A stretch of DNA of 64,000 nt, taken from assembly GCF_004104055.1 (NCBI RefSeq), contig NZ_QOVJ01000001.1, positions 1,178,001-1,242,000 on the forward strand. Reading direction: 5' to 3'. Positions 5,931 through 36,543 of this stretch are shown piece after piece. Position numbers and translations under genes: made by a program. The notes beneath the pieces are model-generated. The model did no database searches and was not told the DNA's origin. It saw only the letters and a list, made by a program, of their open reading frames with translations. How positions within the stretch are numbered: position 1 is the stretch's first letter; every line of letters starts with the position of its first letter. This DNA is from Leeuwenhoekiella aestuarii (GTDB taxonomy: Bacteria > Bacteroidota > Bacteroidia > Flavobacteriales > Flavobacteriaceae).

Positions 5931-6288
5931 ATGAAAATAATATAGAGTACCCCTTTTTTTTTGTCTTAATAAGCTTTGGGATTCAAGCCCAGTCTAAGGT
6001 GAAAATTTCAAAACTAAAAGAAGGTGACATTTTAAAAGTTGGACCACAATCAACAGAAGATTTAAAATACGTTAAACCTTCAAAAGCAAATTTCATTATC
6101 AAAAATGAATGACTAGCAAATAAGAAAAGGTTATTTATAAGAGTGTCGAAGTACTTAGCGTTAACAATGAAAATAGAGACAAACCTTTTATCACCGTTAA
6201 GTTTACTTAAGGAAAAGCAGCTAATACTTTTGATTATTTTGAAACCGTATTAAAACATCCAATTGACTCAGGAGAACTCTTACTATAG
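5931..6288 (+). pseudogene. Decayed gene for a secreted protein at operon end
   Basis: ATG at 5931 starts MKII and then hits TAG. Past the T-run at about 5953-5962 another frame reads LISFGIQAQSKVKISKLKEG and continues for about 30 codons to TGA at 6110. A third frame then reads IYKSVEVLSVNNENRDKPF, with a stop, then NTFDYFETVLKHPIDSGELL to TAG at 6286. Joined, these give a signal peptide plus about 110 residues of a coherent small secreted protein, broken by at least two stops and two frameshifts. The family is not recognised. It probably was the last gene of the upstream operon. Confidence 0.6.
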
Positions 6289-6340
6289 CTTTATAAAGGC
6301 TTTGCCTAGTTAAACTGAGTAAGGCAATAGATATTTTATA

Positions 6341-6378
6341 AGCACAATTTCACAAATAGAAATTGTGCTTTTTTTTTA
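6341..6378 (+). terminator. Rho-independent terminator of the susD-PLP operon
   Basis: A perfect 10-bp stem, AGCACAATTT and AAATTGTGCT, encloses a 9-base loop and runs straight into nine T residues. It follows the decayed last gene of the operon and should end its transcript. Confidence 0.9.
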
Positions 6379-7640
6379 ATAATTGATCAACAGGAAGTAT
6401 GGTTGTAGCAAAAACTCAACATATCTAGAGGTTCTGATAAAGTATATATTAAATTCTTAATTTTTGGAAACGACTAAACTATACTGAATAAACCCCATTT
6501 CCCTCCATTCCGCAAAAGGCCTGTCTTGAGCAAAGTCGAAGGGCTTCATTCCAGAAAAAGAGGTTTATTCCAAAATCTTGAACCCAATCCGGAAAAGGAT
6601 TGCGTTCGCCTGATCCTGCTGACTTCAAGTTTGCGTTTTACAAGAAACTTTTAACCAACTTCAAAGCGGTAGTTGAACATCCTGTACAGCACTCATTTCC
6701 TTTTCGTTTAAGAACTAAAATTTAGCCGGAGCCGCTTTGCATAACCAGGCTCCCCTGTCGCACTTTTTATAAAAGCGCTTCCTTGCTAAATTTTAAAAGG
6801 AAGTCTGTCGAAAAGGAAACGCGATGGCGCTATGGGAAGTAAATGGAACTGCAATCCAGATCCTCTTTTTCGTTGCCTTGATCTTAAAATAGGAGGTGAT
6901 TGAAGTGTTCTGAGCTGGATGGAACACCAAGAAAAACGCTCCAGATATAATAAGTAAATGGGTTTGCTCCTCATTTAATTTGACAGCATTTGATATCAAA
7001 ATTAATGCGGATTTTAATTGATAACTTAGGGTGTAAAAGTTATCGTTTTGAGGAGCGAAGCGGATAAAAATGAAAAGCAAGAGGATAACCCGCTGCGCGA
7101 GGTTACGGTATACATTTTATAAATTAAGTTGTTGGTAATCAGTTGATTGTTTGTTTTTTTAACTGATTGGTCTTTAGATTTTTGCGACAAAAGCTCTGGG
7201 AGCCCCTATTTTTAGTGAAGATTTTGCGACAAATCGATTTATTCTGCTTGCACTTAAGGCTGAAGATTTTTTATAAAACCAATTGAGTTCCGAATTTTGA
7301 TAATTATCTCCAAACAATAAAGAGTACTACAATGAACTGGATGAAAATAGATTTGAAGACTGAGATAGTAAGGATTTTTAGATACTCTAAGTTCAAGTCT
7401 ATTCTTCGATCGCCGGATTAGATCTTTACCTGTGTGGAGTTATAGCAATCTTATTTTTTGCCTTATTAGTATTCTATTCATTGAATTGAAATTTGGAAAT
7501 AACCCTTAATCTTTCACGTGCCAAATCATAAATATTTGTACTTCAGTTTGATCGTATGAAAACCCATCAAATACATAATCGAATCTTTTTTATAATTTTT
7601 TTTTGGAAAAAGGGGATCATATAAAATATAATACTTAATA
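6379..7640. other. Gene-free stretch, no convincing content
   Basis: About 1.26 kb without a credible gene. Open frames on the minus strand at 6786-7080 show no family features and no ribosome-binding context. At 6521-6550 the string TTGAGCAAAGTCGAAGGG resembles a short dispersed repeat frequent in flavobacterial intergenic DNA (from memory). TTTTGCGACAAA occurs twice near 7180-7230. Nothing else was recognised. Confidence 0.4.
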
Positions 7641-7644
7641 TTAC

Positions 7645-7668
7645 ACTGTATTAGTAAAGTAATACAGT
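7645..7668. promoter_or_regulatory. Perfect palindrome, likely operator of the GntR-type regulator
   Basis: ACTGTATTA, six bases, then TAATACAGT: 9-bp perfect arms ending 14 bases before the ATG of the ABC ATPase gene. The operon it precedes encodes a GntR/YtrA-type repressor (9336), and regulators of that subfamily usually bind a palindrome of about this size at their own operon promoter. Binding here would block transcription or the start of translation. The assignment to this regulator is inference. Confidence 0.65.
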
Positions 7669-7682
7669 AAAACAGTCTATAT

Positions 7683-8501
7683 ATGATTCACATTGACTCT
7701 TTAGAATTTTCACATGTAAAACATGACAGGTTATTTAATGACTTAGGATTTCAAGCAGAGCCTGGGAGCATTACCGGTCTTTTAGGAAAAAATGGTGCCG
7801 GGAAAACCAGCTTATTAAAACTAATCGCAGGGATATTATTTCCAGATAAAGGTAATATTCAGGCCCTGGGCTATCAACCTAAAAAGCGACATCCGGATTT
7901 TTTAAAACAAGTCTATTATCTGCCTGAAGAGTTCTATCTACCCAGTACATCAGCAACAAACTACATAAAAGCCAATAGCAGTTTTTATCCAAAATTTGAT
8001 CACGAGTTGATGCGTAGTCAGCTGCTGGACTTTGAAATCCCAATTAAAAATTCATTGGATAAGCTATCTTACGGGCAAAAAAAGAAGTTCTTAATCTCCT
8101 TCGCCCTTTCGACCAAATGCAGCCTGCTCATATTAGATGAGCCTACAAATGGTTTAGACATTCCCTCAAAAACGCTTTTTAGAAAATTGCTCGCGGGAGC
8201 ACTGGATGAGAATCAATTGGTACTTATTTCAACGCATCAGGTAAAAGATGTGGAGAATCTTATTGATCGTGTCACGATATTGAACGACGGTAAGATCAGC
8301 TTTGATCAGGATATTCTCAGTATATCTGATCATTTTCAATTTACAACACTACCCAATTTAGATAACCAAACACTATTGTATAGCGAGAGAAGTCCCAACG
8401 GTTATAAGGTTATTTTGGATAACCCGGGTAGTAATTCGCAGGTAGACATTGAATTGTTATTTAACGCCATCACTCAAGGCATAAAACTGGAAGGACTATG
8501 A
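7683..8501 (+). CDS. ABC transporter ATP-binding protein
   Basis: A 272-residue ABC ATPase with Walker A GLLGKNGAGKTSLLK (about residue 35), a signature motif degenerate from LSGGQ (LSYGQKKKF), Walker B LLILDEPTNGLD and the H-loop in ISTHQ. The C-terminal 60 residues form the extra domain common in two-component drug or lipid exporters. The stop overlaps the ATG of the membrane-protein gene (ATGA), so the two are translationally coupled and probably form one transporter. The ATP-GntR-membrane grouping is the YtrA-type antibiotic- or envelope-stress export arrangement. Substrate unknown. Confidence 0.93.
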   Translation: MIHIDSLEFSHVKHDRLFNDLGFQAEPGSITGLLGKNGAGKTSLLKLIAGILFPDKGNIQALGYQPKKRHPDFLKQVYYLPEEFYLPSTSATNYIKANSSFYPKFDHELMRSQLLDFEIPIKNSLDKLSYGQKKKFLISFALSTKCSLLILDEPTNGLDIPSKTLFRKLLAGALDENQLVLISTHQVKDVENLIDRVTILNDGKISFDQDILSISDHFQFTTLPNLDNQTLLYSERSPNGYKVILDNPGSNSQVDIELLFNAITQGIKLEGL

Positions 8502-9334
8502 AAACAGGATCTATTTTTAGTGCTTCACGCCTTTTCCGCCTAAGCAAAAGACACTTTTTACACAACTATAAAGTTCTTTTGACCGCCATTCTTGTAGGTT
8601 TCGGTATTTCCTTTTTAATAATTGCCTTCCTACAATTTATGAACGGAGCGAATCAAAGTGGAAATACAATGTTCATAGTAATCGGAGTTTTAGGCTACGC
8701 GCTCTTAGGTGGTTTCTATATTAGTTCTTCCTTTTCGTATTTTAGAAATAAAGAGAAGGCTCAGGATTATTTAATGTTACCCGGGACCGCCTTAGAAAAG
8801 TATTTAGTTGAGTTTGTATTCTACCCTCTACTTTACTTGTTGCTATTCCCTATGCTTTATCTTCTAGCCTACGAGCTGAGTACTTCATTTATATCTATAA
8901 TTAAACCCCACTTCATTCCATTCAATCTTAAGGAAGAATTTTATGAAATTTTGGTTTTAGAGGGTTACTATACAGAGGATGGAGTTCCAATAACTTCACG
9001 AGTAAACTTTTTGATTTTATGGGTCACAAGTAGTTTTTCTCTTGCTATGGCCTTCTTTCTGGGAGCCTCAGCTTTCAAGAAACAGGTAATGCTCAAAACA
9101 CTATTAGGACTAGCTATATACTTTGGTCTCTGCTCGTTACTACTCTATTATTTAATGGTTGAACTAAAATGGAGTAATTACGATATAAATGACACCAAAA
9201 CATTTCTATCTCCAATTGGTTCAGAAGATCATTCCCCAAAACCTATAATTAATTTCTTTAGCTATTGGATTCTTTCTTGGGGTATTCTATTTAGTGTCGT
9301 ATCATTCTTTAAGCTCAAAGAAAAGGAGGTTTAG
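8498..9334 (+). CDS. ABC transporter membrane subunit
   Basis: 278 residues with about six hydrophobic segments (near residues 25-45, 55-80, 105-130, 170-195, 200-225 and 245-268) and no enzyme motif. It overlaps the ATPase gene by 4 bp and ends one base before the regulator start, as expected of the permease half of an ABC exporter. A long polar loop (residues about 130-170) lies between membrane spans. I infer the ABC-2-type permease role from topology and gene order; there is no sequence signature that proves it. Confidence 0.75.
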   Translation: MKTGSIFSASRLFRLSKRHFLHNYKVLLTAILVGFGISFLIIAFLQFMNGANQSGNTMFIVIGVLGYALLGGFYISSSFSYFRNKEKAQDYLMLPGTALEKYLVEFVFYPLLYLLLFPMLYLLAYELSTSFISIIKPHFIPFNLKEEFYEILVLEGYYTEDGVPITSRVNFLILWVTSSFSLAMAFFLGASAFKKQVMLKTLLGLAIYFGLCSLLLYYLMVELKWSNYDINDTKTFLSPIGSEDHSPKPIINFFSYWILSWGILFSVVSFFKLKEKEV

Positions 9335-9335
9335 T

Positions 9336-9686
9336 ATGGAATTTGACAACAATCAAAGCATATATATTCAGATAGCCGATACCTTATCGGATCGGATCAT
9401 TAACGGAGAATATAAACCTGGCGAGAAAATACCATCTGTACGTGAACTGGCGGCAGAAGTAGGCGTAAATCCCAATACCATTATGCGAACCTATACCGAG
9501 TTACAATCCAAAGAAATTATTGAAAATAAGCGGGGAATCGGCTACTTCGTGACTCCTCAGGCTCTGGACTGTATTCTACAGGAACGAAAGAAAATCTTTT
9601 TTAATAAGATTTTACCTCAGTTTATTAAAGAAGCCTCTCAATTAGGAATTAGTTCAGAGGAACTTAAAAATCATCTGGATCTATAG
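9336..9686 (+). CDS. GntR-family (YtrA-type) transcriptional regulator
   Basis: A 116-residue short GntR protein: an N-terminal winged helix (YIQIADTLSDRIINGEYKPG, EKIPSVRELAAEVGVNPNTI, GIGYFVT) and only about 40 further residues, the YtrA-subfamily layout without a large effector domain. ATG 9336 was chosen because it follows a near-perfect Shine-Dalgarno (AAAAGGAGGT at 9321-9330), rare in Bacteroidota, and starts one base after the permease stop. It probably represses its own operon through the palindrome at 7645-7668. The inducer is not known; in other bacteria such operons answer cell-wall antibiotics. Confidence 0.92.
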   Translation: MEFDNNQSIYIQIADTLSDRIINGEYKPGEKIPSVRELAAEVGVNPNTIMRTYTELQSKEIIENKRGIGYFVTPQALDCILQERKKIFFNKILPQFIKEASQLGISSEELKNHLDL

Positions 9687-9705
9687 ATCCTTAAAACGCT
9701 AAAAA

Positions 9706-10458
9706 ATGAAATTAAGTAATATCATATTAGGGAGCTTCTGTGCATTATTTATAATCTATGTTTTTGGAGTGGCTGCAGAAATCCGATATAGAGGCGAAGA
9801 AAGAATACCCTCCTATTTAGATAATAGAGTTGCAAATTACTCAGAAGATTGTAAATCTGATTATAGAATTATTCATGATCTTCCTGCCTTTAAAATTTTG
9901 AAAATAAATAAAGTAAGTGGCGTTGCAAAAATTAAGTTTGATCCTAAAGCTCAAAATCAATTTTTAGTATATGCAGAGCGTCAGGAAAAATTACCCGAAA
10001 TGGAATATCATGTATCCGGCGATACGCTTTTTATTGATAAACTAGATAAAGAAGGACTTTGTGATCAATTTACTATAGAGCTAACAGAGACTCCTCAACA
10101 AATTATCGCTGATTCGATGAAAATCAATTTAATTAATAGCTCAGCTGGTTTGAAAAGGTTAAATCTAAAAGGGTCAAACACCACCTTTCAATTATTGACC
10201 GTAAACAACAGCATTGGATCTATTGATAGCCTCACTGTTAACCTGAATAATAATTCCTCCATACATTCCCAAAGTATGGTTTTGATCGATCATTTAGAAG
10301 GAAAAGCCTGGAATAACTCTCAGATGTTATTAGGCAATGCAAAAGCGGAATCTGCACAAGTTGAAATATATGGGCAATCTCAAGTTATGATTAATGATAA
10401 GTTCTTTGATAGTGCAGATGCATCAGAGAAAATAATTTACCAGAAATCAAAGCAGTAG
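9706..10458 (+). CDS. Exported DUF2807-like (head-GIN) protein
   Basis: 250 residues with an N-terminal signal or anchor (hydrophobic residues 5-24) and then a beta-rich body with repeats such as VSGVAKIKFDP and LNNNSSIHSQSM, ending in the surface-strand pattern seen in DUF2807 / putative autotransporter-adhesin-like head-GIN proteins. It follows the regulator by 19 bases and is probably the last gene of the ABC operon. Flavobacteria often carry such a protein with a GntR-ABC group, suggesting an envelope-stress role. The family assignment rests on general pattern rather than a diagnostic motif. Confidence 0.55.
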   Translation: MKLSNIILGSFCALFIIYVFGVAAEIRYRGEERIPSYLDNRVANYSEDCKSDYRIIHDLPAFKILKINKVSGVAKIKFDPKAQNQFLVYAERQEKLPEMEYHVSGDTLFIDKLDKEGLCDQFTIELTETPQQIIADSMKINLINSSAGLKRLNLKGSNTTFQLLTVNNSIGSIDSLTVNLNNNSSIHSQSMVLIDHLEGKAWNNSQMLLGNAKAESAQVEIYGQSQVMINDKFFDSADASEKIIYQKSKQ

Positions 10459-10544
10459 CATGAATGTCCTAAGAACCTATAGGAATAAGACAATACAAGC
10501 GGTTTACGATTTATGGTAATCCCAAAAAAGTTTCAACTTGGACT

Positions 10545-10588
10545 TCCGTTTTTCTAACACTCCCAATTTACGGACTGGGATGGGAAGG
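10545..10588 (-). repeat. Second, degenerate guide-RNA repeat unit
   Basis: Reading the minus strand, this 44-base unit begins CCTTCCC and ends GGGAGTGTTAGAAAAACGGA. It mirrors the unit at 10658-10700 (CCTTCCC, then GGGATTGTTAGGAACGGA) in both ends and in the distance between them. It can fold through TCCC and GGGA as the first unit does. Sequence that could serve as a second guide follows (10544 downward). The copies are 112 bases apart, longer than an ordinary CRISPR period, so this is a degenerate or divergent array rather than a canonical one. Confidence 0.5.
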
Positions 10589-10640
10589 AATTATAAGTAT
10601 TTGAGTTTACAGTCCACCCACGTCCGTTGTATAGGTTTTT

Positions 10641-10801
10641 GCATTTTATGTCGTTTATCCGTTCCTAACAATCCCTTTTCATTTAATCTTTAAGGGAAGG
10701 GTTGTATATGCTGCGTGCATTTAGTGAGTGCTATTAAAATACCTCACCTTACGGGTGTACAAGCACCCTCAGACCCTTAGGGTCAATTACGTATTTACAC
10801 A
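10641..10801 (-). ncRNA. Candidate guide RNA (Cas12f-type scaffold plus guide) for the dCas12f-like protein
   Basis: Directly after the dCas12f stop, the minus strand folds as hairpin GACCC-TAA-GGGTC (10772-10784), then hairpin GGGTGCTTGTACACCC (10753-10768), then GTAAGGTGAG whose GTGAG pairs with CTCAC 15 bases on. A repeat/anti-repeat-like stem follows (ACAACCCTT with AAGGGATTGT, one bulge, 10668-10677/10697-10705). The order and the TGCTTG-loop hairpin followed by the pseudoknot-like stem resemble the Un1Cas12f1 tracrRNA as I remember it. The repeat-like part ends GTTAGGAAC or GGAACGGA, so the guide should begin near 10660-10657 (GGATAAACGACATAAAATGC as the outer estimate). The exact 5' end, processing and guide length cannot be read from sequence. 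Confidence 0.7.
10658..10700 (-). repeat. First guide-RNA repeat unit
   Basis: On the minus strand this 43-base unit starts CCTTCCCTTAAAG and ends GGGATTGTTAGGAACGGA. It contains the stem closing the 3' part of the Cas12f-like scaffold. Its partner unit lies at 10545-10588. Confidence 0.55.
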
Positions 10802-11899
10802 TCAATCGATGAGCAATTCAATACCTGCTTTTTTGGCTTTGTATTCTATTTTCTGGGTTAATTCATAATAATTCCAGTTTCTAAGCACAAAACGTTCTTG
10901 CTGTGCGGCCTCGATCTTAGCTTCCTGATTGAGCAGAATCAAGGTGCCGGCTTGTTGTTGGATACAAAAATCAATGAGCTTTCGGCTGTACACATGCAAA
11001 CGGTTACTTACGTAGTTTTTTTCCAGTTCGTAAAATTTTTCTACTGCTTTAGTTTTGCGTTTAAAACCTTTTCCCGGTCTGCAATAGGTGGCTCCGCTTT
11101 GTGCTCTTTTTTGAGCAGCCTGCAGGGCTAGCCTTCTGTATAGAAATTCTTCCCTGTTGCCAATACGAAGTGTAGCTTTTCCAGATTTCACAGTAATAGG
11201 GTATTCAAGGGATAACGAAGCTTCCGCAATGACTTCCGGTTTTAGACAATGCTTTTCTTTCTCAAATTCAAAGGTGGCTAACCAATAAATTTTTTGCTTC
11301 TTCAGTTGGATTCTGGAAGTACATAATTTGATTTTGCCGGCGACTAACTGTTCCAGCAATTTTCGTTTATCGGTATAATCCTTTCCTAAATAGGTTTTTA
11401 AGGGAATGGAAAACAAACGAAAACAAAATGCTTTTTGCGCTTCGTTATAGGATAATCCATGAATGGCTACCGGCCCAAAAGGGAAAGCAATATTTCTTTT
11501 AAAATTGGCAAGCGCGCGTTCTCCTTTGCTATATTCCGGCAGGTTGTTCCGAAAGTTATTGATTATGGTATTGTTCAGGTTGGCTAAAATGTTAGTAGGG
11601 ATTTCCCCTTTAAAACGATCGGATACCACCCGATAGGTGCAGTTCATTTTTGACCGATTGAGGATGCCGTCTTCCGCTTTTTTTTCATCCGCTAACTTAT
11701 AGCGTATTCCTTCTGATAGGTAAAAGAATTCTTTGACCCGTTCCTGTATGTACAGATGTGAAATAATGAGATTGGCCGCTCTAAAGCTTCTGTTCTGCCA
11801 GCGGTAGAGCGTGTCGTAGACCTCCTTCTTTTCCTCTTTGGTAGGCGCATCCACCTGTAGCTGGATCTTTCGGGTGAGTTTTATCGTTTCTTTTCCCAT
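10802..11899 (-). CDS. Nuclease-dead, C-terminally truncated Cas12f/TnpB-like protein (dCas12f)
   Basis: A 365-residue protein with the TnpB/Cas12f layout: N-terminal recognition region, a beta-rich wedge segment (FCFRLFSIPLK, KLCTSRIQLKKQKIYWL), then the RuvC part with FYELEKNYVSNRLHVYSRK and WNYYELTQKIEYKAKKAGIE. The catalytic positions are lost: the RuvC-I GIDLG-type motif reads EASLSLEYP (S228 for Asp), RuvC-II reads TLILLNQEA (N324 for Glu). The protein stops at ELLID, before the zinc finger and third RuvC aspartate. It should bind RNA and DNA but not cut. It starts two bases after the sigma-factor stop and is followed at once by a Cas12f-like guide scaffold, the arrangement of recently described dCas12f-sigma RNA-guided transcription systems. 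Confidence 0.85.
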   Translation of the reverse strand: MGKETIKLTRKIQLQVDAPTKEEKKEVYDTLYRWQNRSFRAANLIISHLYIQERVKEFFYLSEGIRYKLADEKKAEDGILNRSKMNCTYRVVSDRFKGEIPTNILANLNNTIINNFRNNLPEYSKGERALANFKRNIAFPFGPVAIHGLSYNEAQKAFCFRLFSIPLKTYLGKDYTDKRKLLEQLVAGKIKLCTSRIQLKKQKIYWLATFEFEKEKHCLKPEVIAEASLSLEYPITVKSGKATLRIGNREEFLYRRLALQAAQKRAQSGATYCRPGKGFKRKTKAVEKFYELEKNYVSNRLHVYSRKLIDFCIQQQAGTLILLNQEAKIEAAQQERFVLRNWNYYELTQKIEYKAKKAGIELLID

Positions 11900-11901
11900 G
11901 A

Positions 11902-12696
11902 CTAAGCGGATTGTTGCTGATCGTGCTTAAGCTGTACCCGTTTGTAGGCAGCCATAAATTCCTGATGTACCTCCTTTAGAGAAAGGTTTAGCTCCTTTGA
12001 AATGGCTGCAAAGGAATACCGCTTTTCCGTACGCAGCTGCAAGACTTTTTCCTGTTCGCGGGTCATATTACCGGGAGCCTTTAACGCCCGGATCGGTGTG
12101 GCTTCAGCTTCGAGTGTACTTCCATTAGTAATGATATTCTTAATATCTTCAATAGCGCCTTTTACTTCAATACTGGTTTTGGCAGTGCTGGTTCCCATTG
12201 CCTGAGCTATAGCTTTATACTGAAAGCCGTATTTTAAGCACAGTTCTACCAGAAGCTTTCTTTCACTGCCCAGTAAGGGAAGTACCTTTTGAATCTGGTC
12301 TAAAGCCTGCTGATCTGCTTCCTGTCTTTGTAGGTGTGCAGCTTCTTCATTCCCCTCATAGCCGCCTAAATAATCCTGATAATTCTCGAAATAGTCTAAT
12401 CGGCTTAGGTTTCGTTGAAACGCATTCCGGGGCTTGCTATATTGGTAAATACACTCGCTTTTCATTACAAAGTGTAAGAACGCATGTAGATGTTCCGGGG
12501 ATTGTATGCGATCCCTTTTTTCCCATAAGATGAGAAAGGTATCCTGAAGGATATTTTCAACTGCATAGACATCCTTAAGTATGCTCCTGCCCATCCAGTA
12601 GACACTACGGTGATACTGCCTGTAAATCGCTTCAAATGCGTGTGGACACCCTTTTTTGAAGGCATCATAGTGCGTATCAAGTTGAAATCGTTTCAT
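11902..12696 (-). CDS. ECF-type RNA polymerase sigma factor with extra C-terminal HTH, linked to dCas12f
   Basis: 264 residues. Sigma-2: FEAIYRQYHRSVYWMGRSIL and AVENILQDTFLILWEKRD (residues 21-61). Sigma-4: a helix-turn-helix at residues 140-190 (LLGSERKLLVELCLKYGF, YKAIAQAMGTSTAKTSIEV). Ordinary ECF sigmas stop here at about 190 residues; this one continues for 70 residues with a second HTH-like unit (MTREQEKVLQLRTEKRYSFA, AISKELNLSLKEVHQEFMAA). No anti-sigma factor or SusCD pair is adjacent. Instead a dead Cas12f follows two bases later (TAG-TC-ATG), so the two are made together. The expected job is to bring RNA polymerase to DNA sites chosen by the dCas12f guide. The extra domain may be the dCas12f contact; that is inference. 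Confidence 0.88.
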   Translation of the reverse strand: MKRFQLDTHYDAFKKGCPHAFEAIYRQYHRSVYWMGRSILKDVYAVENILQDTFLILWEKRDRIQSPEHLHAFLHFVMKSECIYQYSKPRNAFQRNLSRLDYFENYQDYLGGYEGNEEAAHLQRQEADQQALDQIQKVLPLLGSERKLLVELCLKYGFQYKAIAQAMGTSTAKTSIEVKGAIEDIKNIITNGSTLEAEATPIRALKAPGNMTREQEKVLQLRTEKRYSFAAISKELNLSLKEVHQEFMAAYKRVQLKHDQQQSA

Positions 12697-12775
12697 AAGC
12701 TAAGTGTTCTGTTTTTCGTTTACATTCTATTCTTTTTAAGGGCATTTCGGTTTAGGCTATTAAGGTTATGCAAGG

Positions 12776-13225
12776 AACCGGGCTTCAAGGCATTTAGACT
12801 CCTGAAAAGGCTTTATAGCTCCGGTAACGCAGCCTCTATAAGAGGTCTAGCATCGTTTTTTAATATTTCATAGCTGTATTACGTAAACCAATCGTTTTTA
12901 GTTAAGCTCAAGCCTTCCCGCCGGACTCCAGTCACAACCGTGAAGGTTTTTGAGCTTAACAGCTTCTCTTTTTCACAGACCCTAAGGTCTGCAGCACTTT
13001 TTTATGGCTAATTCACCGGTGTGCTTAAACCTACCCGGTATAAGCCCAGGCCGCTATTAAAGCGGCGTTTCCCACCCAACTACAGGTTACTTCGTAGGGA
13101 AGCAACCCATAACCCACGGGTGACTTAGCGGATTATGACGTGTACCCGTAAACACGTCCTTTGTGCATAGGTGTTACCCTTATCCCCAAGCCTTTTCCTT
13201 CCGAAGTTTCGGAGAAAAGGGAGTT
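12776..13225. ncRNA. Large highly structured RNA candidate, strand uncertain
   Basis: No gene, but dense perfect helices. GTTAAGCTCA (12901-12910) pairs with TGAGCTTAAC (12951-12960); CAGACC with GGTCTG (12976-12991); GCCGCT with AGCGGC (13051-13066). GACGTGT pairs with ACACGTC (13137-13158) around loop ACCCGTAA, whose ACCCGT can pair with ACGGGT at 13115-13120 (pseudoknot). GGGTGAC (13118) can pair with GTTACCC (13173) around that hairpin. CCTTTTC pairs with GAAAAGG (about 13190-13220) with an inner TCCGAA/TTCGGA. The piece is GC-rich against its surroundings. ACCGTGAAGGTT near the first stem and TAGCGGAT at 13126 recall IscB-associated HEARO RNA, only from memory, and no IscB gene is present. 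It does not match the Cas12f scaffold. Confidence 0.5.
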
Positions 13226-13401
13226 TGATTCTTACTGCTAGTAGCTTTAGGATCAAGAAATACTATTCTCTAGTCTCCTTTTGGTCAGTATAGTAAGGGC
13301 GTCCCGTTAAGAATTTCTGAAGCCTTGGAAGAAATTTAGGGAGGCGCTTGCGGTTTTTGCAATAGCAAAAAATACCTATCCAAAAGGCGTCGTTTCTTTT
13401 G

Positions 13402-13435
13402 GTTCGTTTTCTTTAGACGAGTAAAGAAAATGAAC
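13402..13435. repeat. Long hairpin, dispersed-repeat type
   Basis: GTTCGTTTTCTTT and AAAGAAAATGAAC form a 13-bp stem (one G:U) around an 8-base loop. The surrounding string (GGCGTCGTTTCTTTTGGTTC) is of a kind seen repeatedly in flavobacterial intergenic DNA (from memory). Role unknown. Confidence 0.45.
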
Positions 13436-13560
13436 AGAACATCCTAAAGAACCTCTAAATGCTTAAACCCAAAGGGTTTCCTGAAACTTGTAAACTCTTA
13501 TAGACAGTCTCACTTAAGAAAACAAAAACAACACCTCATCTATACCATAGGCAAAATCAT

Positions 13561-13790
13561 ATTAAAAAAATAAACACATCACCCCGTGCGGGATGCCGGC
13601 CAATATGGCCTATATGATGTAGGGGAAAAAGGGTGCGAAGCTTTATAAAGAAGAATACAAAAGCTCTGAAAGTGGAGTGTAGGCCCAATACAAAAAGGCG
13701 CAGGTCTCAACTTATTGAACAGAGGTACTGGTATACCTAACAGCAATAAGTGAGAGCCCACGCCCGGGTCGTGAGCATCCCTGCTTATCA
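13561..13790 (-). ncRNA. Second structured RNA candidate ending in a terminator
   Basis: On the minus strand GGGATGC (13781-13775) pairs with GCATCCC (13596-13590), closing a multibranch fold. Inside are GCTCACG/CGTGGGC (one mismatch), a long stem CTCTCACTTATTG with CAATAAGTTGAGA capped by AGGTA/TACCT, AGCTTT/AAAGCT, and a GGCC/GGCC hairpin. The 3' end can refold as CATCCCG-CA-CGGG plus GATG followed by TTTATTTTTTT (13574-13561), a plausible intrinsic terminator, which favours the minus strand. No open frame here is convincing. It lies upstream of, and in the same orientation as, the sigma-dCas12f pair, but no link is proven. Confidence 0.5.
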
Positions 13791-13908
13791 TCTCGCTGTT
13801 TAAAAATTACCAGTTTTCTGTTCGAGATTCAAAGCGAATGCTTCTAATATTTTACTTAAAGAAGTTTCGCAAATATATAATTATGAGTCAAATATAAGAT
13901 TCTTTTAC

Positions 13909-13934
13909 TTAATGCGGAAGAACTTCCGCATTAA
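13909..13934. promoter_or_regulatory. Perfect palindrome before HTH gene, likely operator
   Basis: TTAATGCGGAAG, AA, CTTCCGCATTAA: 12-bp perfect arms with a 2-base centre, 30 bases before the ATG of a small HTH protein gene. The very short centre suits a dimeric DNA-binding protein better than a terminator loop, so autoregulation by that protein is likely. Confidence 0.6.
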
Positions 13935-13964
13935 ATTTTAATTGATATTCTTCCTTTGTTAAAT

Positions 13965-14180
13965 ATGAATATCAATTTTCTAATAAGTAATGCCATTTCC
14001 GAATGGATTAAAGATGCCAAATCAAACCGTGACTTTGCACTTAATCATAATATTGATGAGAAAATTGTAAGAAGAATTCTTGACGAGAAGGAATATCGTA
14101 TTCCGGTTGAAACTCTAAAAAGGATTTGTGATGCACGTCAATTAAAATTGTCTGATTTCTTTTCTGAGATCAAAGAATAG
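13965..14180 (+). CDS. Small HTH (Cro/CI-like) regulator
   Basis: 71 residues, almost entirely a helix-turn-helix of the XRE type: NRDFALNHNIDEKIVRRILD followed by YRIPVETLKRICDARQLKLS and DFFSEIKE, the usual ending of Cro/CI folds. ATG 13965 is preferred over the TTG nine bases upstream. The palindrome at 13909-13934 is its likely operator. It stands at the left edge of the accessory region and may be a leftover or functional regulator of an integrated element. Confidence 0.75.
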   Translation: MNINFLISNAISEWIKDAKSNRDFALNHNIDEKIVRRILDEKEYRIPVETLKRICDARQLKLSDFFSEIKE

Positions 14181-14190
14181 TTCAGTTTAA

Positions 14191-14260
14191 TTTTCATACA
14201 CTCTTCTCAATCCTATGCATTTAGTGGGCTTTGCCTAGGGGGTACTATAATGCTGTCTCA
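14191..14260. repeat. Dispersed repeat copy A
   Basis: TTTTCATACACTCTTCTCAA, then AGTGGGCTTTGCCTAGGGGG. The first part matches copies at 26640 and 29608; the second matches the copy at 33261 (AGTGGGCTTTGCCTGGGGG). Each copy is followed on the plus strand by an ORFan or accessory gene. Confidence 0.6.
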
Positions 14261-14332
14261 CCTACTGAATTGAAAAGTAAAAAATGAAATTTGTCTTTTT
14301 GTGACAGAATTTTTCTTTCGAAACATCCTAAT

Positions 14333-14340
14333 TATCTTTG
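14333..14340 (+). promoter_or_regulatory. Bacteroidota -7 promoter element
   Basis: TATCTTTG fits the TAnnTTTG -7 consensus and lies 16 bases before the ATG at 14357. A -33 TTG at the ideal spacing is not clear. Confidence 0.45.
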
Positions 14341-14356
14341 CCTAAAAATCTTATTT

Positions 14357-14584
14357 ATGAATTTCGAAGAAGCATTAAAACTCAAATCAGAAAAAGAAAT
14401 TAAAAACTCAAGTGAATTTAAAATTGTGTGTCCACACTTTATTGAAGACCCAATTGGAAATAAAAAATTTAGAGATGATATTCCTAATTTCAGATTAACA
14501 GACTTGGATGCGAAAAAATACTCGACCAACGGAAAATATGGTATTATGGATATAAATATGAATGTTTTTAAACAATATCGATAA
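14357..14584 (+). CDS. Small hypothetical protein
   Basis: 75 residues from ATG 14357 (MNFEEALKLKSEKEIKNSSE), with a TAnnTTTG box just upstream. It is acidic/basic mixed, soluble, without signal peptide or recognisable motif; CPHFIEDPIGNKKF and FRLTDLDAKKYS are its most distinctive pieces. It follows dispersed repeat copy A, like other ORFans of this island. Not recognised. Confidence 0.5.
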   Translation: MNFEEALKLKSEKEIKNSSEFKIVCPHFIEDPIGNKKFRDDIPNFRLTDLDAKKYSTNGKYGIMDINMNVFKQYR

Positions 14585-14857
14585 AATTTCAATAACCGAT
14601 TTCCGCAAGTAAAACGTTGAATTATCACTTAAACTCTGAATTTAGCTAGTTACAGAATGGTTTTCTCAAACGGAATTGAATGAATAATTTGAGCTATGAA
14701 AAAACAACGAAATGGTAAAACCGTGAATATTATTGCTAGTACTCGCCTCCTTAAGCAGATCTTACAGAATTTCTATTCATTAGTATTTGCTAAATTAAGT
14801 GATCAAACACCCCACTAAGTATATATTAAAAGTTACCTGTAAGCTGACAAAACCATA
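14585..14857. other. Short gap with a possible 40-codon frame
   Basis: A frame at 14696-14818 (plus) reads MKKQRNGKTVNIIASTRLLK and stops after 40 residues. It has no recognised family and may be a fragment. Otherwise empty. Confidence 0.25.
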
Positions 14858-15739
14858 ATGACAAATATAGAATTACAAAAACATAATGATTTCTTGTTAA
14901 AACAAATGGAATTAACAAGAAAAAGAATTATTCAACCTGTTTATCGTGGTGACTCTCTTAGAAACCTATGTTTTAGATTAAATGTTGAGTTTAATGAGAC
15001 TCAAACCGATACTGAAACTCTATTGAATAGGTTGTTTATGGTTGGAGAAAAAGCTCAAAGATATTACACAGATAATGAAAATTTCCGAATCGAAGATGCT
15101 GAAGATTATGTGTTTGACAGAATTATTAAGTACTACAATGATTCTATCAAAAGCAAAAATAAGCACACTTTATTCTTTTTTAAGCAAAACAAAAATTTCA
15201 CTGATTTTTTTTCAAATAAAGTAAACAAGAAAATTTTTATTGAAAAAATTGAGAACGCAGGTTATCAAGAAAGACTTAATATTAGGAATTATTATTTAAC
15301 CATTTTACATCAGCTTGCTGCAATTAATTATAAAAAAAAATCTCATTTTGTTTCAACAACAAGAGACTACGAAATTGCCGAAATGTTTGCTAACGGAAAA
15401 CGAGAAAAAAGTAGAATTATATTACATTGTTGGCTTCCAAAAAAAATAAATAGAAATGCTGTGTTAAAATATGGCTTACCAACTTATACTTTTCATCCCT
15501 ATCAATATCAGAGAGAATATTCAATATTGGGAGGAATTTTACCACATTTTATTTCTGGTTTAGAATTAATTGAATCCAGAGAATTTTATCCAAATCCAAA
15601 TATTTTTCTTCAAGAAATCAAAAATTCAACTTTTTTAGAGGGTATTAGAATAAATCAACAAGATTTTCACAACATTGCTGAATTAACAAATTATAAAATA
15701 ACATTATCAACGGATGGAGATAAAACATGGGAAAACTAA
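14858..15739 (+). CDS. Putative ADP-ribosyltransferase-like protein
   Basis: 293 residues, A/T-rich coding unlike the core genes. Three pieces in the right order match the R-S-E triad of ADP-ribosyltransferase folds: Arg in QPVYRGDSLRN (about residue 30), a Ser-Thr-Thr strand in SHFVSTTRDYEIAEMFANG (about residue 170), and Glu in YQREYSILGGI (about residue 220). Together these suggest an NAD-dependent toxin or phage-defence effector. No signal peptide is present, so it would act inside the cell. The neighbours (HEPN-like protein, type I restriction with PrrC) fit a defence island. It is an uncertain fold call made by eye. Confidence 0.5.
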   Translation: MTNIELQKHNDFLLKQMELTRKRIIQPVYRGDSLRNLCFRLNVEFNETQTDTETLLNRLFMVGEKAQRYYTDNENFRIEDAEDYVFDRIIKYYNDSIKSKNKHTLFFFKQNKNFTDFFSNKVNKKIFIEKIENAGYQERLNIRNYYLTILHQLAAINYKKKSHFVSTTRDYEIAEMFANGKREKSRIILHCWLPKKINRNAVLKYGLPTYTFHPYQYQREYSILGGILPHFISGLELIESREFYPNPNIFLQEIKNSTFLEGIRINQQDFHNIAELTNYKITLSTDGDKTWEN

Positions 15740-15911
15740 AATCCAGAAGTTAACAAAGTATGCTATGAAAATCACTAGGCCTGTTCTTTCCAGTTTTTCT
15801 TATTTTAAACAGTTTCTTGACCAATAAGAATTCAATAAAAGCTTAAATAACCTCGATCTAGGTATTGAGTAACATCTGTAATTTCAACCAGATATCCAAT
15901 TCAAACCACTG

Positions 15912-16592
15912 ATGAACAAATTCAATTTATTAAGCCAAGCAACAGCGATAAAGCTATTTAGAACAACTAGTGCTATTGTTGAGTATGTCGTCATTGAAGA
16001 AGAATTAAATGAATTATTCAATTACTGCATCTTACTCCAAGAGTCGACACAAGATAAAATTGATCAATTAGTTAGTGAGCGTGAGGAGCTTGAAAAAGAA
16101 TCTTATAAACGTTTTGAATTTGATGGCATACAATTCAAGAATATAGATACTATTGACGGAATTGAAAATTTCGAAATTCCATCTTGGAATGCCCTGTTTG
16201 AATTTACAGTACCTATGAATCAAATTTTACTCATAAGTATATTCTTGGAAAAATCACTAAAATCTTTATGTGCTGAATATAGTCCTAATAATGATTCTAC
16301 ATATTATGATGGTTATAATCTCAAGATTAAAAGGAATAGACAAGAAAGTCTCATCTGCACCTATATTAAATACCTTGAACAACAATGCGGATTGAAAAAC
16401 GTATCAAATCCAACCATTGAATATTTAAATCAAAATATCAGACCGCTTAGAAATTCTTTTGTACACGGTGATTGGATGACTATTAAAAGATATACTGAAG
16501 AAATTGATATCAATGAAGTTTTTATTTCCGTTTCAAATCTATTTCGAATCATTGAAGAAAAGTATCTAAATAAATCCAATGCGAATATATAA
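15912..16592 (+). CDS. Hypothetical protein with HEPN-like RxxxxH motif
   Basis: 226 residues, helical throughout. Near the C-terminus the string PLRNSFVHGDW contains R-x4-H, the active-site pattern of HEPN ribonucleases, which are common in toxin-antitoxin and abortive-infection systems. The N-terminal half is charged and may form a coiled coil (ESTQDKIDQLVSEREELEKE). It lies 171 bases after the putative ADP-ribosyltransferase gene and 176 before hsdM, on the same strand. The HEPN call depends on one motif and helical context. Confidence 0.45.
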   Translation: MNKFNLLSQATAIKLFRTTSAIVEYVVIEEELNELFNYCILLQESTQDKIDQLVSEREELEKESYKRFEFDGIQFKNIDTIDGIENFEIPSWNALFEFTVPMNQILLISIFLEKSLKSLCAEYSPNNDSTYYDGYNLKIKRNRQESLICTYIKYLEQQCGLKNVSNPTIEYLNQNIRPLRNSFVHGDWMTIKRYTEEIDINEVFISVSNLFRIIEEKYLNKSNANI

Positions 16593-16768
16593 GGGCGAAT
16601 GTGGTCTTATTAAGGTATTCGTTTTATTATTTTCGTACGCTTACCTAAGAGATAAGATTCGACAGCATCAATTGATATCTATCAAAATTAAATACTTTAG
16701 CTTTAGCAAAGTTCATAAGAAAAAGCAGGATCTAACCTGCTTAGGATAAAACACATTTAAAAACAATA

Positions 16769-18316
16769 ATGACAAGTACATCACAAAGAGCCGAATTACA
16801 AAGTAAAATCTGGAGTATAGCCAATGACGTTAGAGGTTCAGTAGATGGATGGGATTTTAAACACTTTGTATTAGGAACGCTTTTCTATCGATTTATCAGT
16901 GAAAATTTCACTTTATACATTGAAGGTGGAGATGAAGGAATAGACTACGCCAATTTATCAGATGATGTAATTACTCCGGAAATAAAAGAAGACGCTGTAA
17001 AAACCAAAGGGTATTTCATTTATCCGAGCCAGCTTTTTGTTAACGTAGTTAAAGATGCGAACACCAATCCAAACTTAAATACAGACCTTGCGGCTATATT
17101 TACTGCTATCGAAAGTTCTGCCAATGGGTTTCCTTCCGAAGAAGATATTAAAGGCTTGTTTGCCGATTTTGATACTACAAGTAGCCGACTAGGTAGTACA
17201 GTAGAAAGCAAAAACAGCCGTTTAGTAAAGGTTTTAAAGGGAGTTGCGGGTTTAAGCTTTGGAAGTTTTGAAGATAATAAAATCGATTTCTTTGGAGATG
17301 CCTACGAGTTTCTAATTTCTAACTATGCCGCCAATGCAGGTAAATCTGGTGGGGAATTCTTTACTCCGCCTAACGTTTCGCATCTCATAGCCAAACTAGC
17401 ATTGCATAAACAAAAGACGGTAAATAAAATATATGATCCTGCGGCCGGTTCAGGTTCCTTATTGCTGCAGGCAAAACCCTACTTTAAAGATCATATTATA
17501 CAAGAGGGTTTCTACGGTCAAGAAATTAACTATACCACTTATAACTTGGCTCGTATGAATATGTTTTTACATAACATCAATTACGATAAGTTCCACTTAG
17601 TGCACGGAGACACTTTGGAACATCCAGAACTGGGAGATGAAAAACCCTTTGATGCCATTGTTTCCAATCCGCCATATTCGGTAAAATGGATTGGTAACGA
17701 CGACCCCACGATGATTAACGACGATCGTTTTGCACCGGCTGGCGTATTAGCACCTAAATCAAAGGCAGATTTTGCTTTTGTATTACACGCTTTAAGTTAC
17801 TTATCCAGTAAGGGTAGAGCAGCATTGGTTTGTTTTCCGGGTATTTTCTATCGTGGCGGTGCCGAACAAAAAATCAGAAAATACCTTGTCGACAATAACT
17901 TTATAGAAACGGTGATCTCTTTAGCACCTAACCTATTTTTTGGAACTTCTATCGCGGTGAATATCCTGGTGCTTTCCAAAAGTAAAACCGATACGAAAAC
18001 TCAATTTATAGATGTAAGCGGAGAAAATTTCTTTAAAAAGGAAACGAATAATAACGTATTGCTTGACCAACATATCGATAAGATTATAGAGATGTTCGAC
18101 AGCAAAGAAGAAGTAGCCCACGTAGCAACAACTATCGATAATAATAAAATAGCAGAGAACGATTACAACCTATCCGTAAGTTCTTATGTAGAACCTAAAG
18201 ACACCCGAGAGAAAATAGATATCAAGGTTTTAAATAAAGAGGTTGCCCAAACCGTAAAAAAAATAGATACACTTCGTGCTGAGATTGATAACATCGTAAA
18301 AGAGATTGAAGGATGA
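16769..18316 (+). CDS. hsdM: Type I restriction-modification methyltransferase subunit HsdM
   Basis: 515 residues. The N-terminal domain starts as in HsdM_N ([20 protein letters not shown]). The AdoMet site is [12 protein letters not shown] (about residue 222) and the N6-adenine catalytic motif is NPPY (about residue 300). The enzyme modifies adenine in the sequence chosen by HsdS as an M2S1 complex. Its stop overlaps the hsdS start by 4 bp (ATGA), and the order hsdM-hsdS-prrC-hsdR is that of the E. coli prr locus. Length and all motifs look intact. Confidence 0.97.
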
Positions 18317-19533
18317 ATTATCTAGAAAAATTATTAGATGGAGTTGAGGTTCAATGGAAAACTTTAGCTGATTATGCCGATTATGAACAACCAACCAAAT
18401 ATCGCGTAAAATCAAAACTTTATAGTGACGAATACAAAACACCTGTATTAACTGCGGGTAAAACATTTTTATTGGGATATACTAATGAGACCAACGGTAT
18501 ATACAAGGCATCAGAAAATCCTGTGATAATTTTTGATGATTTTACGACTGCTAATAAGTGGGTAGACTTTGATTTTAAAGTGAAATCATCTGCAATGAAG
18601 ATGATAACATCTAAAGATGAATCAAAAGCTTTATTAAAGTATTTGTATTATTGGTTAAACACAATTCCAAGTGGACTAGTTGAAGGGGATCATAAACGAC
18701 AATGGATTAGTAATTATGCGAATAAGGAAATCCCTATCCCTTGTCCCGATAAGCCAAAAAAATCCCTAGAAATTCAACAAAAAATAGTTGATATTCTCGA
18801 TACGTTTACAGAGCTTACCGCAGAGCTTACCGCAGAGCTTACCGCAGAGCTTACCGCTCGTAAACAGCAATTTGAATATTATCGAGAAGAATTGCTAAGT
18901 TTTGATAAGGATAAAGTTCAACATTTACAAATGGGCGATGAAACCCTAGGGGAGTTTATACGTGGCAAAAGATTTGTAAAAACCGATATTATTGAAGAAG
19001 GAGTTCCTACGATTCACTATGGAGAAATGTATACCCATTATGGTACTTGGGCAGATCAGACAAAATCTTTTGTCAGTAGAGAATTGGTAGATCGTAAAAA
19101 GTTGAGACTTGCTGAAAAAGGAGATGTTGTTATAGTCGCAGCTGGAGAAACTATTGAAGATATAGGGCAAGGAACAGCTTGGCTAGGTAATGAAGGTGTA
19201 GTTGTTCACGATGCTTGCTTCTATTACAAAAGTAGTTTGAACCCCAAATATGTAGCTTATTTTACACGTACCAGACAATTTCACGATCAAATTAAGAAAC
19301 ATATTCGTACAGGAAAAATTTCTGCAATAAACTCAAAAGGTCTAGGTACAGCTATAATCCCAATACCTTCCCCAGAAGAGCAAGAACGTATTGTAGGTAT
19401 CCTCGATAAATTTGATATCCTTACCTCTTCTATTAGTGAGGGTTTACCCAAAGAAATAGAATTAAGGAAACAGCAATATGAGTTTTACAGAGCCTTATTA
19501 TTAGACTTTGCGAAAAAAAATATAGCAATATAA
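18313..19533 (+). CDS. hsdS: Type I restriction-modification specificity subunit HsdS
   Basis: 406 residues with two target-recognition domains (about 1-155 and 205-370), each followed by a conserved helix: [19 protein letters not shown] in the middle and [20 protein letters not shown] at the end. The central helix carries tandem TAEL repeats made by a 12-base unit (18811-18858), as in the EcoR124 family, where the number of TAEL copies sets the spacing between the two halves of the recognition site. The second domain ([14 protein letters not shown]) is typical. It starts inside the hsdM stop and ends one base before prrC. Confidence 0.95.
18811..18858 (+). repeat. Four tandem 12-bp repeats inside hsdS (TAEL repeats)
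   Basis: GAGCTTACCGCA three times and GAGCTTACCGCT once, in frame, coding for the TAEL spacer between the two recognition domains. Gain or loss of a unit keeps the frame but adds or removes four residues, changing the DNA spacer length read by the enzyme. Confidence 0.9.
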
Positions 19534-19534
19534 T

Positions 19535-20713
19535 ATGAGTCAATCCTTAGAGCAAATAGCACAGAAACTTATCGACGCTGATAAAAAAGTACAGTTAATC
19601 TATGCTTTTAATGGTTCGGGTAAAACAAGACTGTCTCGTAAATTTAGATTGTTGGTTGACCCTAAATTTACAGATGAAGAGCAGGAAGAACAAGAAGAAT
19701 CAGGGATTAGAGTAATGTATTACAATGCATTCACAGAAGACCTATTTTACTGGGATAATGATCTAGATGGAGACACAAAAAGAAAGTTAATCATACGCCC
19801 CAATAATTTTACTGATTTAGCCTTGGGGTTCTTGAAAGATCAGGGTTTAGATATCAATATTGCGACTAATTTTCAGCATTTTACTACAGATTCTATAACA
19901 CCTAAATTCAATGAAGAATATATTGCTCAAGATAAAAATGGAAATGATGTTACTGTAAAGGCATATTCGGAAGTAACTTTTTCAGTAGCAACTGGTGATG
20001 AAAGAAGTGAGCCTAATATCAAAATTTCCAAGGGTGAAGAAAGTAATTTTATTTGGTGTGTATTTTACAGTCTTTTAGAACAGATAGTAGAAATATTAAG
20101 TATCACAGAAGTTGAAGATCGATCCACTAACGACTTTAACGACTTAAAATATATTTTTATTGATGACCCCATAAGTTCACTTGATGAAAATCATGTAATC
20201 GAGCTCGCTGTAAACCTAGCGGGGTTAATCAAAAAATCTGATAATTTAAAGTTTATTCTGTCTACGCACGATCCATTATTTTATAATGTTTTATACAATG
20301 AATTAGGCAATAAAAAATGTTATTTACTTGATAAATTAGAGGATGGGACGTTTGAATTAGAAGAAAAACAAGGTGATTCTAATAAAAGCTTTTCATATCA
20401 TCTTTATTTAAAAAATACTATTGAAAATGCTATTGAAAAAAATGACATTCAAAAATATCATTTTGTTTTGCTTCGTAACCTTTATGAAAAAACTGCAAAT
20501 TTTCTTGGATATTCAAAGTGGTCTGATCTCCTACCTTCCAATGACAGACAGGCTTACATCAGCCGTATAATGAATTTTTACAGTCACAGTACTTTATCAA
20601 ACGAGGAGGTTAGAGAACCAACTCAGCCAGAAAAACAAATAATTAGTTTTTTGTTTAATTACTTAGTAGAAAATTCAAAATACCTGAAAGAAGAGGAAAA
20701 TGTCACAGTATAA
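19535..20713 (+). CDS. prrC: PrrC-type anticodon nuclease (ABC ATPase)
   Basis: 392 residues. Walker A is FNGSGKT (residues 25-31), the ABC signature region [10 protein letters not shown] (about 164), Walker [14 protein letters not shown] (about 208) and a His switch in [10 protein letters not shown]. The C-terminal nuclease triad of PrrC is present with the right spacing: R314 and E318 in [10 protein letters not shown] and H351 in NFYSHSTLS (E to H +33). In E. coli PrrC is held silent by the type I enzyme and cuts tRNA-Lys in its anticodon when a phage inhibits that enzyme. Here the gene sits in exactly the prr position, between hsdS (1 bp gap) and hsdR (14 bp overlap). Target tRNA not testable from sequence. 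Confidence 0.9.
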
Positions 20714-23700: not shown

Positions 23701-23804
23701 AGATGAGTCCTTTAAATCCGCAGTATTTAACCAAAAAAAGAAGTGTGTTTCAGAAAATAGCAACTTTTGTAGAAAAATTTAAAGGAGTTGGTGGGCAGCT
23801 TTAA
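20700..23804 (+). CDS. hsdR: Type I restriction enzyme motor/nuclease subunit HsdR
   Basis: 1034 residues. The N-terminal PD-(D/E)xK nuclease is visible as [20 protein letters not shown] (about 150-170). The SF2 motor has [13 protein letters not shown] (about 308), [10 protein letters not shown] (about 408), GFTGTPIF and [11 protein letters not shown] (about 680), and a helical C-terminal domain binds the methyltransferase. The protein translocates and cuts unmodified DNA. It begins inside prrC, so prrC and hsdR are translationally linked. Intact by length and motif set. Confidence 0.97.
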
Positions 23805-36219: not shown

Positions 36220-36266
36220 TTTTGTCTTTTAAATGAGGGATTTAAAGTACAAAAGTCCTAATTAAA

Positions 36267-36354
36267 AAGTGTTAAAGAAATCGCGTAAGCTCTTTTATTT
36301 TAACACTTTAGGAGGCTTCGAGGTGAGTCTTTTTCGAGTTTAAAAAGACTCACC
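36267..36354. repeat. Two inverted repeats between integrase and tRNA-Asp
   Basis: AAGTGTTAAA (36267-36276) with TTTAACACTT (36299-36308), and a perfect 13-bp pair GGTGAGTCTTTTT (36322-36334) with AAAAAGACTCACC (36342-36354). They lie in the likely attachment and promoter region of the integrase. They could be binding sites or a terminator; undecided. Confidence 0.5.
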
Positions 36355-36410
36355 GAATCGCGCACCTTTTGGATGGAATTATTTGATATCAAACGACATT
36401 AAATAAAATA

Positions 36411-36444
36411 AAAAAGCCTGTAAATCATATGATTTACAGGCTTT
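36411..36444. terminator. Bidirectional intrinsic terminator
   Basis: AAAAGCCTGTAAATC and GATTTACAGGCTTTT form a 15-bp stem around ATAT, with A and T runs on both sides. It lies downstream of tRNA-Asp on the minus strand and should end that transcript. Confidence 0.85.
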
Positions 36445-36469
36445 TAGAGGAATTTGGAATAACTCCTAG

Positions 36470-36543
36470 CGGTCTGGACGGGACTCGAACCCGCGACCCC
36501 ATGCGTGACAGGCATGTATTCTAACCAACTGAACTACCAGACC
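36470..36543 (-). tRNA. tRNA-Asp (GTC)
   Basis: A 74-nt cloverleaf on the minus strand: acceptor GGTCTGG/CCAGACC, anticodon loop CTGTCAC with GTC, T-loop GGTTCGAGTCC, discriminator G. CCA is not encoded. Its 3' end faces the integrase gene, the usual place for island insertion. Confidence 0.97.

Follow-up and report, generated by a model that had tools for sequence, protein, structure and literature searches.

A dCas12f-sigma factor locus of Leeuwenhoekiella aestuarii and a structured susCD leader as its probable target

Nuclease-deactivated Cas12f (dCas12f) proteins that work with sigma factors were described in 2025, and they reportedly initiate transcription a fixed distance away from the R-loop, with a 5'-G motif and free of any promoter motif. 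We take entries 9n9c, 9n9m, 9n9o and 9n9q of the Protein Data Bank (PDB) to represent this dCas12f-sigmaE RNA-guided transcription (Hoffmann, Wiegand et al. 2025). Here we analysed a 64,000-nucleotide stretch of Leeuwenhoekiella aestuarii DNA (contig NZ_QOVJ01000001.1, positions 1,178,001 to 1,242,000; hereafter the window), in which genes for an extracytoplasmic function (ECF)-type sigma factor and a dCas12f are followed by a guide RNA (gRNA) scaffold. Since both gene products have their nearest solved relatives in this set, 'Nuclease-deactivated Cas12f' for one and the RpoE of 9n9q for the other, the window, judged by sequence, carries a real member of the dCas12f-sigmaE system, and this member is probably functional. 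What we add to the known system is a target element, a structured leader, and the likeness of guides to it. Because most guides of relatives resemble one hairpin arm of this leader, the 3' one, and because all 31 exact copies of the guide sequence GGCGTGGGCTCT in 15 genomes lie in leaders or gRNA tails, the leader is probably where the system switches on susCD operons as well as its own genes.

The dCas12f gene (10802-11899, minus strand) encodes 365 residues. In phmmer searches its best solved match, over the full length, is 'Nuclease-deactivated Cas12f' 9n9c (E 1.8e-167), which a profile search against solved proteins also retrieves (E 1.7e-196); the closest solved proteins, in 9n9c, 9n9m, 9n9o and 9n9q, all bear that name, at 68% identity. 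Foldseek ranks first, again at 68% identity, the entry 9n9m, which was released 2025-12-24 under the title 'dCas12f-gRNA-DNA complex (partial R-Loop)'; the AlphaFold model used as the query is poor (predicted local distance difference test score of 52) and served solely to name PDB entries. Ser228 and Asn324, both read directly from the open reading frame (ORF), occupy the aligned positions at which the Cas12f chain 9nzo has its RuvC Asp and Glu, and 9nzo runs approximately 90 residues further, the C-terminal RuvC-III/zinc-finger part being absent from the window protein. The initial annotation of a nuclease-dead, Cas12f-like protein that stops early is thus borne out. Position 228 is occupied by Ser in 14 of 16 aligned homologues and by Thr or Phe in one each; position 324 is Asn in 12 and Asp in four. 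A type V-F CRISPR-Cas12f nuclease was considered and rejected, since S228 and N324 break the RuvC Asp-Glu-Asp triad. The Pfam TNB model stays below its cut-off (13.8 versus 26.3 bits), and no TNB match was found across the whole genome, in which the window's dCas12f is the only dCas12f match. The ratio of nonsynonymous to synonymous substitution rates (dN/dS) is 0.07-0.10 against four congeners; by this measure the protein is under strong purifying selection.

The sigma gene (11902-12696, minus strand) is separated from the dCas12f gene by two bases on the same strand, exactly the arrangement first proposed. Its 264-residue product harbours matches to sigma regions 2 and 4, fits ECF families and exceeds the cut-off of the broad sigma70-ECF model. 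Its best solved match by phmmer is 'RpoE', chain C of 9n9q (E 2e-75), an entry that also contains dCas12f. The dN/dS values are 0.20-0.31 in three valid comparisons, a mis-trimmed row (L019) having been excluded.

The gRNA scaffold (10701-10770, minus strand) begins 31 bases past the dCas12f stop codon and scores 80.7 bits with our R1 model. It is predicted to form three hairpins and a pseudoknot between a loop and the 3' end. An alignment of 31 copies (30 distinct) has 97.6% of cells paired across these elements, with 8 pairs changed on both sides, and none of 500 shuffles scored as high; within the pseudoknot, which joins the loop TTGTA to a 3' TACAA, one two-sided change turns U-A into C-G in three copies. 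R1 matches are present in 10 of 13 genomes of the genus, the same ten that harbour dCas12f. The Cas12f-like scaffold announced by the initial annotation is therefore a recurrent, covarying element and, together with the full-length homology of both proteins to partners of a single PDB entry and the purifying selection, it upholds the assignment as a dCas12f-sigma-gRNA system. A search of Rfam with E up to 1, covering window positions 6000-18000 and four loci, returned nothing relevant for this scaffold or for the leader described below.

The genome holds four scaffolds, namely the window copy, C13:34810-34878, C3:158532-158598 and C3:158697-158758. The first of the three distant copies (L105) and L033 are orphan scaffolds with the guide GGTGGGAGACGCTTGC, which is nearly identical in G007, there next to a dCas12f match of 69 residues that lies at the end of a contig. 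Next to the window scaffold we found by eye a remnant of a second one (10610-10644, minus strand), consisting of the 3' end ATGC...TATACAAC (10626-10644) followed by the leader-like guide GGACGTGGGTGGACTG (10610-10625). Several relatives harbour arrays of two to six scaffold-guide units. By eye, the dcas12f 3' end is copied along with the units in Salegentibacter, and tandem duplication therefore seems to be the source of the arrays. Loci L036-L043 are such arrays, several spaced by dcas12f 3' end copies and with CCTTCCC-type junction guides. A CRISPR array as the guide source is not indicated, the repeats being scaffold-guide units, several with the dcas12f 3' end between them, as judged by eye and without a CRISPR finder.

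Upstream of the sigma gene lies the structured leader (13697-13838, minus strand), which matches our covariance model R2 with an E value of 9.7e-35. It belongs to a conserved element of approximately 140 nucleotides, for which RNAalifold predicted 32 pairs from 21 copies; for 11 of these pairs, at least one sequence has both bases changed. Its hairpin has the 3' arm GGGCGTGGGCTC (13754-13765, minus strand), the predicted protospacer (a G, then GCGTGGGCTC), and its 3' end consists of GCGCC and a T-run (13692-13701, minus strand) and is terminator-like. In an alignment of 46 leaders, this 3' arm pairs with the 5' arm of the hairpin in 96.9% of cells, with 5 cells changed on both sides, or alternatively with the leader 3' end in 96.5% of cells, with 14 changed on both sides; a T-rich run follows the 3' end in most of them. 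The minimum free energy (MFE) fold of the window leader is the terminator-like form (z -3.87), which is the more stable form in only 6 of the 46. From these alternative pairings, the leader looks like an attenuator.

R2 leaders occur in 10 of the 13 genus genomes, exactly those with dCas12f. Our strain has three, one before the sigma and dCas12f genes and two elsewhere. That at C8:73512-73653 precedes genes for SusC (TIGR04056, E 1.5e-208), SusD (PF07980) and an M16 peptidase, and that at C5:179649-179789 (L190) precedes a truncated sigma gene of 155 residues with region 2 only. As the window's dCas12f has no second copy in the genome, the latter looks like the relic of a second system. Among 13 leaders fetched from the genus, a SusC-size ORF comes next in 10, with a SusD-size ORF behind it in nine; these calls rest on ORF length and sequence start, the C8 pair alone having been tested with profiles. 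We also hand-picked 40 leaders of other genera, mostly away from dCas12f, from 89 R2 hits: 25 precede SusC- plus SusD-size ORFs, two precede an ORF of 430-450 residues and then a TonB-receptor-size ORF, one precedes a sigma-dCas12f pair, and 12 have no such genes in the stretch retrieved. Genes resembling helix-turn-helix (HTH) regulators are divergent to many of the leaders, as seen by eye. Six low-scoring R2 hits (L195, L267, L270, L271, L285 and L286), most of which start with TTAGCTTTTG or similar and have a GCGTGGGCT hairpin, resemble a sister leader with no susCD in the stretch; they were excluded from alignment A4. A literature search for the dCas12f-sigma system and for susC leaders gave no report of either among the matches listed, which is no proof of absence from print.

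The connection between guides and leaders comes from relatives. Most of their guides start with GGCGTGGGCTC or a variant, and GGCGTGGGCTC also makes up the 3' arm of the leader hairpin in front of the sigma gene. A search of 15 Chryseobacterium-group genomes for GGCGTGGGCTCT gave 31 exact matches, of which 22 are in R2 leaders, nine in gRNA tails and none elsewhere. Approximately one site would be expected by chance if G+C is 36%, and the reversed sequence, used as a control, has none. GGCGTGGGCTCT is the genome's own guide in eight of the 15 (nine tails and eight leader sites); in the other seven, with 14 leader sites, the own guide departs from it by one or two bases. Where both guide and leader are non-standard, they agree within the same genome at 16 of 18 positions in G033 (guide GGCGTGTCATCCCACTT versus susCD leader GGCGTGTCATCCGACTT), at 17 of 18 in G037 and at 15 of 18 in G003. 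For the variable part, 17 distinct targets compared with 50 distinct guides gave a match of 119; after column shuffling of the guides it was 108.8+-2.8 (0 of 2000 shuffles). The 19 leader arms in this analysis were picked by hand, as were the guides, which had to be alignable at GCGTG; the CCTTCCC-type guides, the C13 guide and a few others were omitted, and so were the G010 leader and most leaders whose arm is the common one. A guide-matching site next to a 5' G upstream of an operon is thus present in some relatives, and the window's adjacent guide has no such target. The proposal that susC-susD genes are targets is supported by the resemblance of relatives' guides to leaders before susCD and before the sigma gene itself; none of the leaders is matched by the guide adjacent to the window scaffold.

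Several observations weigh against targeting of the leaders. Four of the eight genomes with an exact GGCGTGGGCTCT guide have no exact leader copy. A stricter, same-genome match is only suggestive (100 versus 91+-5.2; 266 of 5000 permutations), with a pooled guide list used for four Chryseobacterium arms. Only three of the 19 leader arms have a same-genome guide that agrees at 15 or more of 18 positions, and four have none above 9; the sigma-leader arm differs from the guide in L072 and in L063-L065/L068. In our own strain no guide agrees with the C8 leader at more than 8 of 18 positions, no intact guide fits, and the leader-like guides ride on decayed or orphan scaffolds. The 20 nucleotides in guide position after the window scaffold, CCTTCCCTTAAAGATTAAAT (10681-10700, minus strand), are near-identical in five Leeuwenhoekiella genomes, and with up to three mismatches their only matches in the own genome are the gRNA itself and one antisense match inside a coding region. 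The same search across the genus gave only gRNA copies, the coding-region match and one match in G012. With this guide alone, the genome search that the initial annotation recommended would therefore have failed.

The distribution of the leader cuts both ways. In a sample of 199 genomes of the family, with dCas12f counted at E 1e-30 or better (more distant dCas12f would escape), the leader is present in all nine dCas12f genomes (Fisher 1.5e-7). Also on the side of the objections, it is found in 29 of the 190 genomes without dCas12f, in 19 of them at E below 1e-16, and 16 of 20 stretches from such genomes have SusC-like ORFs downstream; no scaffold was detected in these 20 stretches (best E 0.61). 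The leader is thus a susCD element in its own right, since both it and the SusC-like ORFs persist in dCas12f-less genomes, and with the arm conserved in such genomes as well, likeness of sequence is by itself no proof of targeting. The 27 genomes that gave the 89 R2 hits of other genera were selected for having dCas12f, and so a count of 27 of 27 among them carries no information. In two dCas12f-less genomes (L328 and L331), we saw by eye a leader followed by an ECF-sigma-like ORF, an ORF of approximately 385 residues and susCD-like genes.

All in all, we consider it likely that the locus is an RNA-guided transcription system that targets leader arms, recruits RNA polymerase and switches on susCD and its own operon. 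The dCas12f-gRNA complex would open an R-loop at the arm of the leader hairpin that is reproduced in the guide (GGCGTGGGCTC-like, next to a G), and the sigma factor bound to dCas12f would bring RNA polymerase, with a start point downstream, inside or beyond the terminator-like 3' end of the leader. Such transcripts, devoid of the 5' half of the terminator, would read into susC-susD or, in the window, into the sigma and dCas12f genes, giving positive feedback. For this strain, we infer that decayed or orphan gRNAs might still do the work.

It is unlikely that the locus is decaying in this strain and targets little or nothing, its leader-directed guide broken and the adjacent 20 nucleotides marking no more than the join where the dcas12f 3' end and scaffold were duplicated in tandem. 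The missing target of the adjacent guide, the scaffold remnant beside it and the truncated sigma gene behind the second own-genome leader all fit such decay, as do Salegentibacter arrays that, by eye, show a similar CCTTCCC junction and then a dcas12f 3' end copy. Against it, the dN/dS values of both genes are low, the scaffold and its 20 nucleotides are nearly unchanged in five genomes, and three more scaffolds are found elsewhere in the genome.

A mechanism at the RNA level appears quite improbable to us. The gRNA tail, equal to the 5' half of the terminator stem, would pair with the 3' half in the nascent leader so that polymerase reads through, with dCas12f as a carrier and a secondary role for sigma. 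The pairing of the 3' arm with the leader 3' end across 46 diverse leaders, with its two-sided changes, and the terminator form of the window leader agree with such antitermination, and the leader-like guides observed have the fitting sense; but DNA targeting needs the identical sense, the terminator form is favoured in few leaders, and for the solved relative the description is of a partial R-loop between gRNA and DNA, with RpoE and dCas12f together in one entry. Judged by sequence, guides could act on DNA, on leader RNA or on both. We consider it very improbable that the GCGTGGG tail is no guide but an invariant structural or terminator part of the gRNA, akin to the leader by descent: the tail is nearly invariant in the Chryseobacterium group, mostly with a T-run next, and by eye can pair with the scaffold's own CTCAC, but tails vary in Leeuwenhoekiella and Salegentibacter, their variants match leader variants, and the tail sits directly after the scaffold, where Cas12f guides start.

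RNA-guided activation at the leader, the reading we prefer, can be set in a wider picture that is possible and that we offer tentatively. The dCas12f-sigma systems of Flavobacteriia may exploit an older attenuator, a terminator-bearing leader common to many susCD operons. Guides would copy the 5' half of the terminator stem, and RNA-guided initiation or pairing would free selected susCD operons, as well as that of the system itself, from the block. Tandem duplication of the dcas12f 3' end with the scaffold might enlarge the guide repertoires, which would persist as orphan gRNAs and drift with the leader arms.

Other features surround the locus. Upstream of the leader, TATATTTG (13870-13877, minus strand) resembles what we take to be the consensus of the Bacteroidota -7 element. 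A divergent gene (13956-14180, plus strand) codes for a Cro/C1-type HTH protein, with a PF13443 match of 21.1 bits, just under the cut-off of 22. Between it and type I restriction-modification genes (16769-23804), which include a PrrC-like gene (19535-20713) between hsdS and hsdR, the region 14858-15739 has a weak Scabin-like Pfam match (20 versus a cut-off of 27 bits). A tyrosine integrase gene (34978-36219) beside tRNA-Asp (36469-36543) suggests an integrated island at 34978-36543. Genes resembling those for MobA/MobC, primases and recombinases were noted by eye close to some of the dCas12f relatives.

These analyses offer a concrete and testable answer to what a natural dCas12f-sigma system would switch, namely susCD nutrient-uptake operons and itself, via a recognisable leader, and R2 provides a covariance-model signature with which candidate regulons can be listed. 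The locus resembles the dCas12f-sigmaE system in its dCas12f (68% identical to 9n9m), its sigma factor (homologous to the RpoE of 9n9q) and its gRNA linked to dcas12f, the Cas12f-like scaffold of which is supported by covariation and by R1 matches. It differs in being known from sequence, in an adjacent guide with no target, and in its orphan and decayed gRNA copies. Type V-F CRISPR-Cas12f nucleases (9nzo, 8hr5 and 7wju) are related to the window protein by sequence and Foldseek, whereas the latter lacks the RuvC catalytic residues and has a shorter C terminus; where they would be expected to have a CRISPR array, dCas12f loci have scaffold-guide units, in tandem in relatives. A TldR repressor was rejected as an identity for the window protein, because its closest kin in the PDB and PADLOC are dCas12f and Cas12f, the NCBIfam TnpB model remains below its cut-off, and a sigma gene is adjacent. 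To our knowledge, TldR has no sigma partner. According to a report on TldR, these TnpB-derived proteins mediate RNA-guided silencing of flagellin genes, and guides as short as 6 nucleotides were sufficient (PMC13418256). As portrayed there, TldR shares with the window system a non-cutting, RNA-guided control of transcription, but it silences its targets, whereas the window system is expected to activate them.
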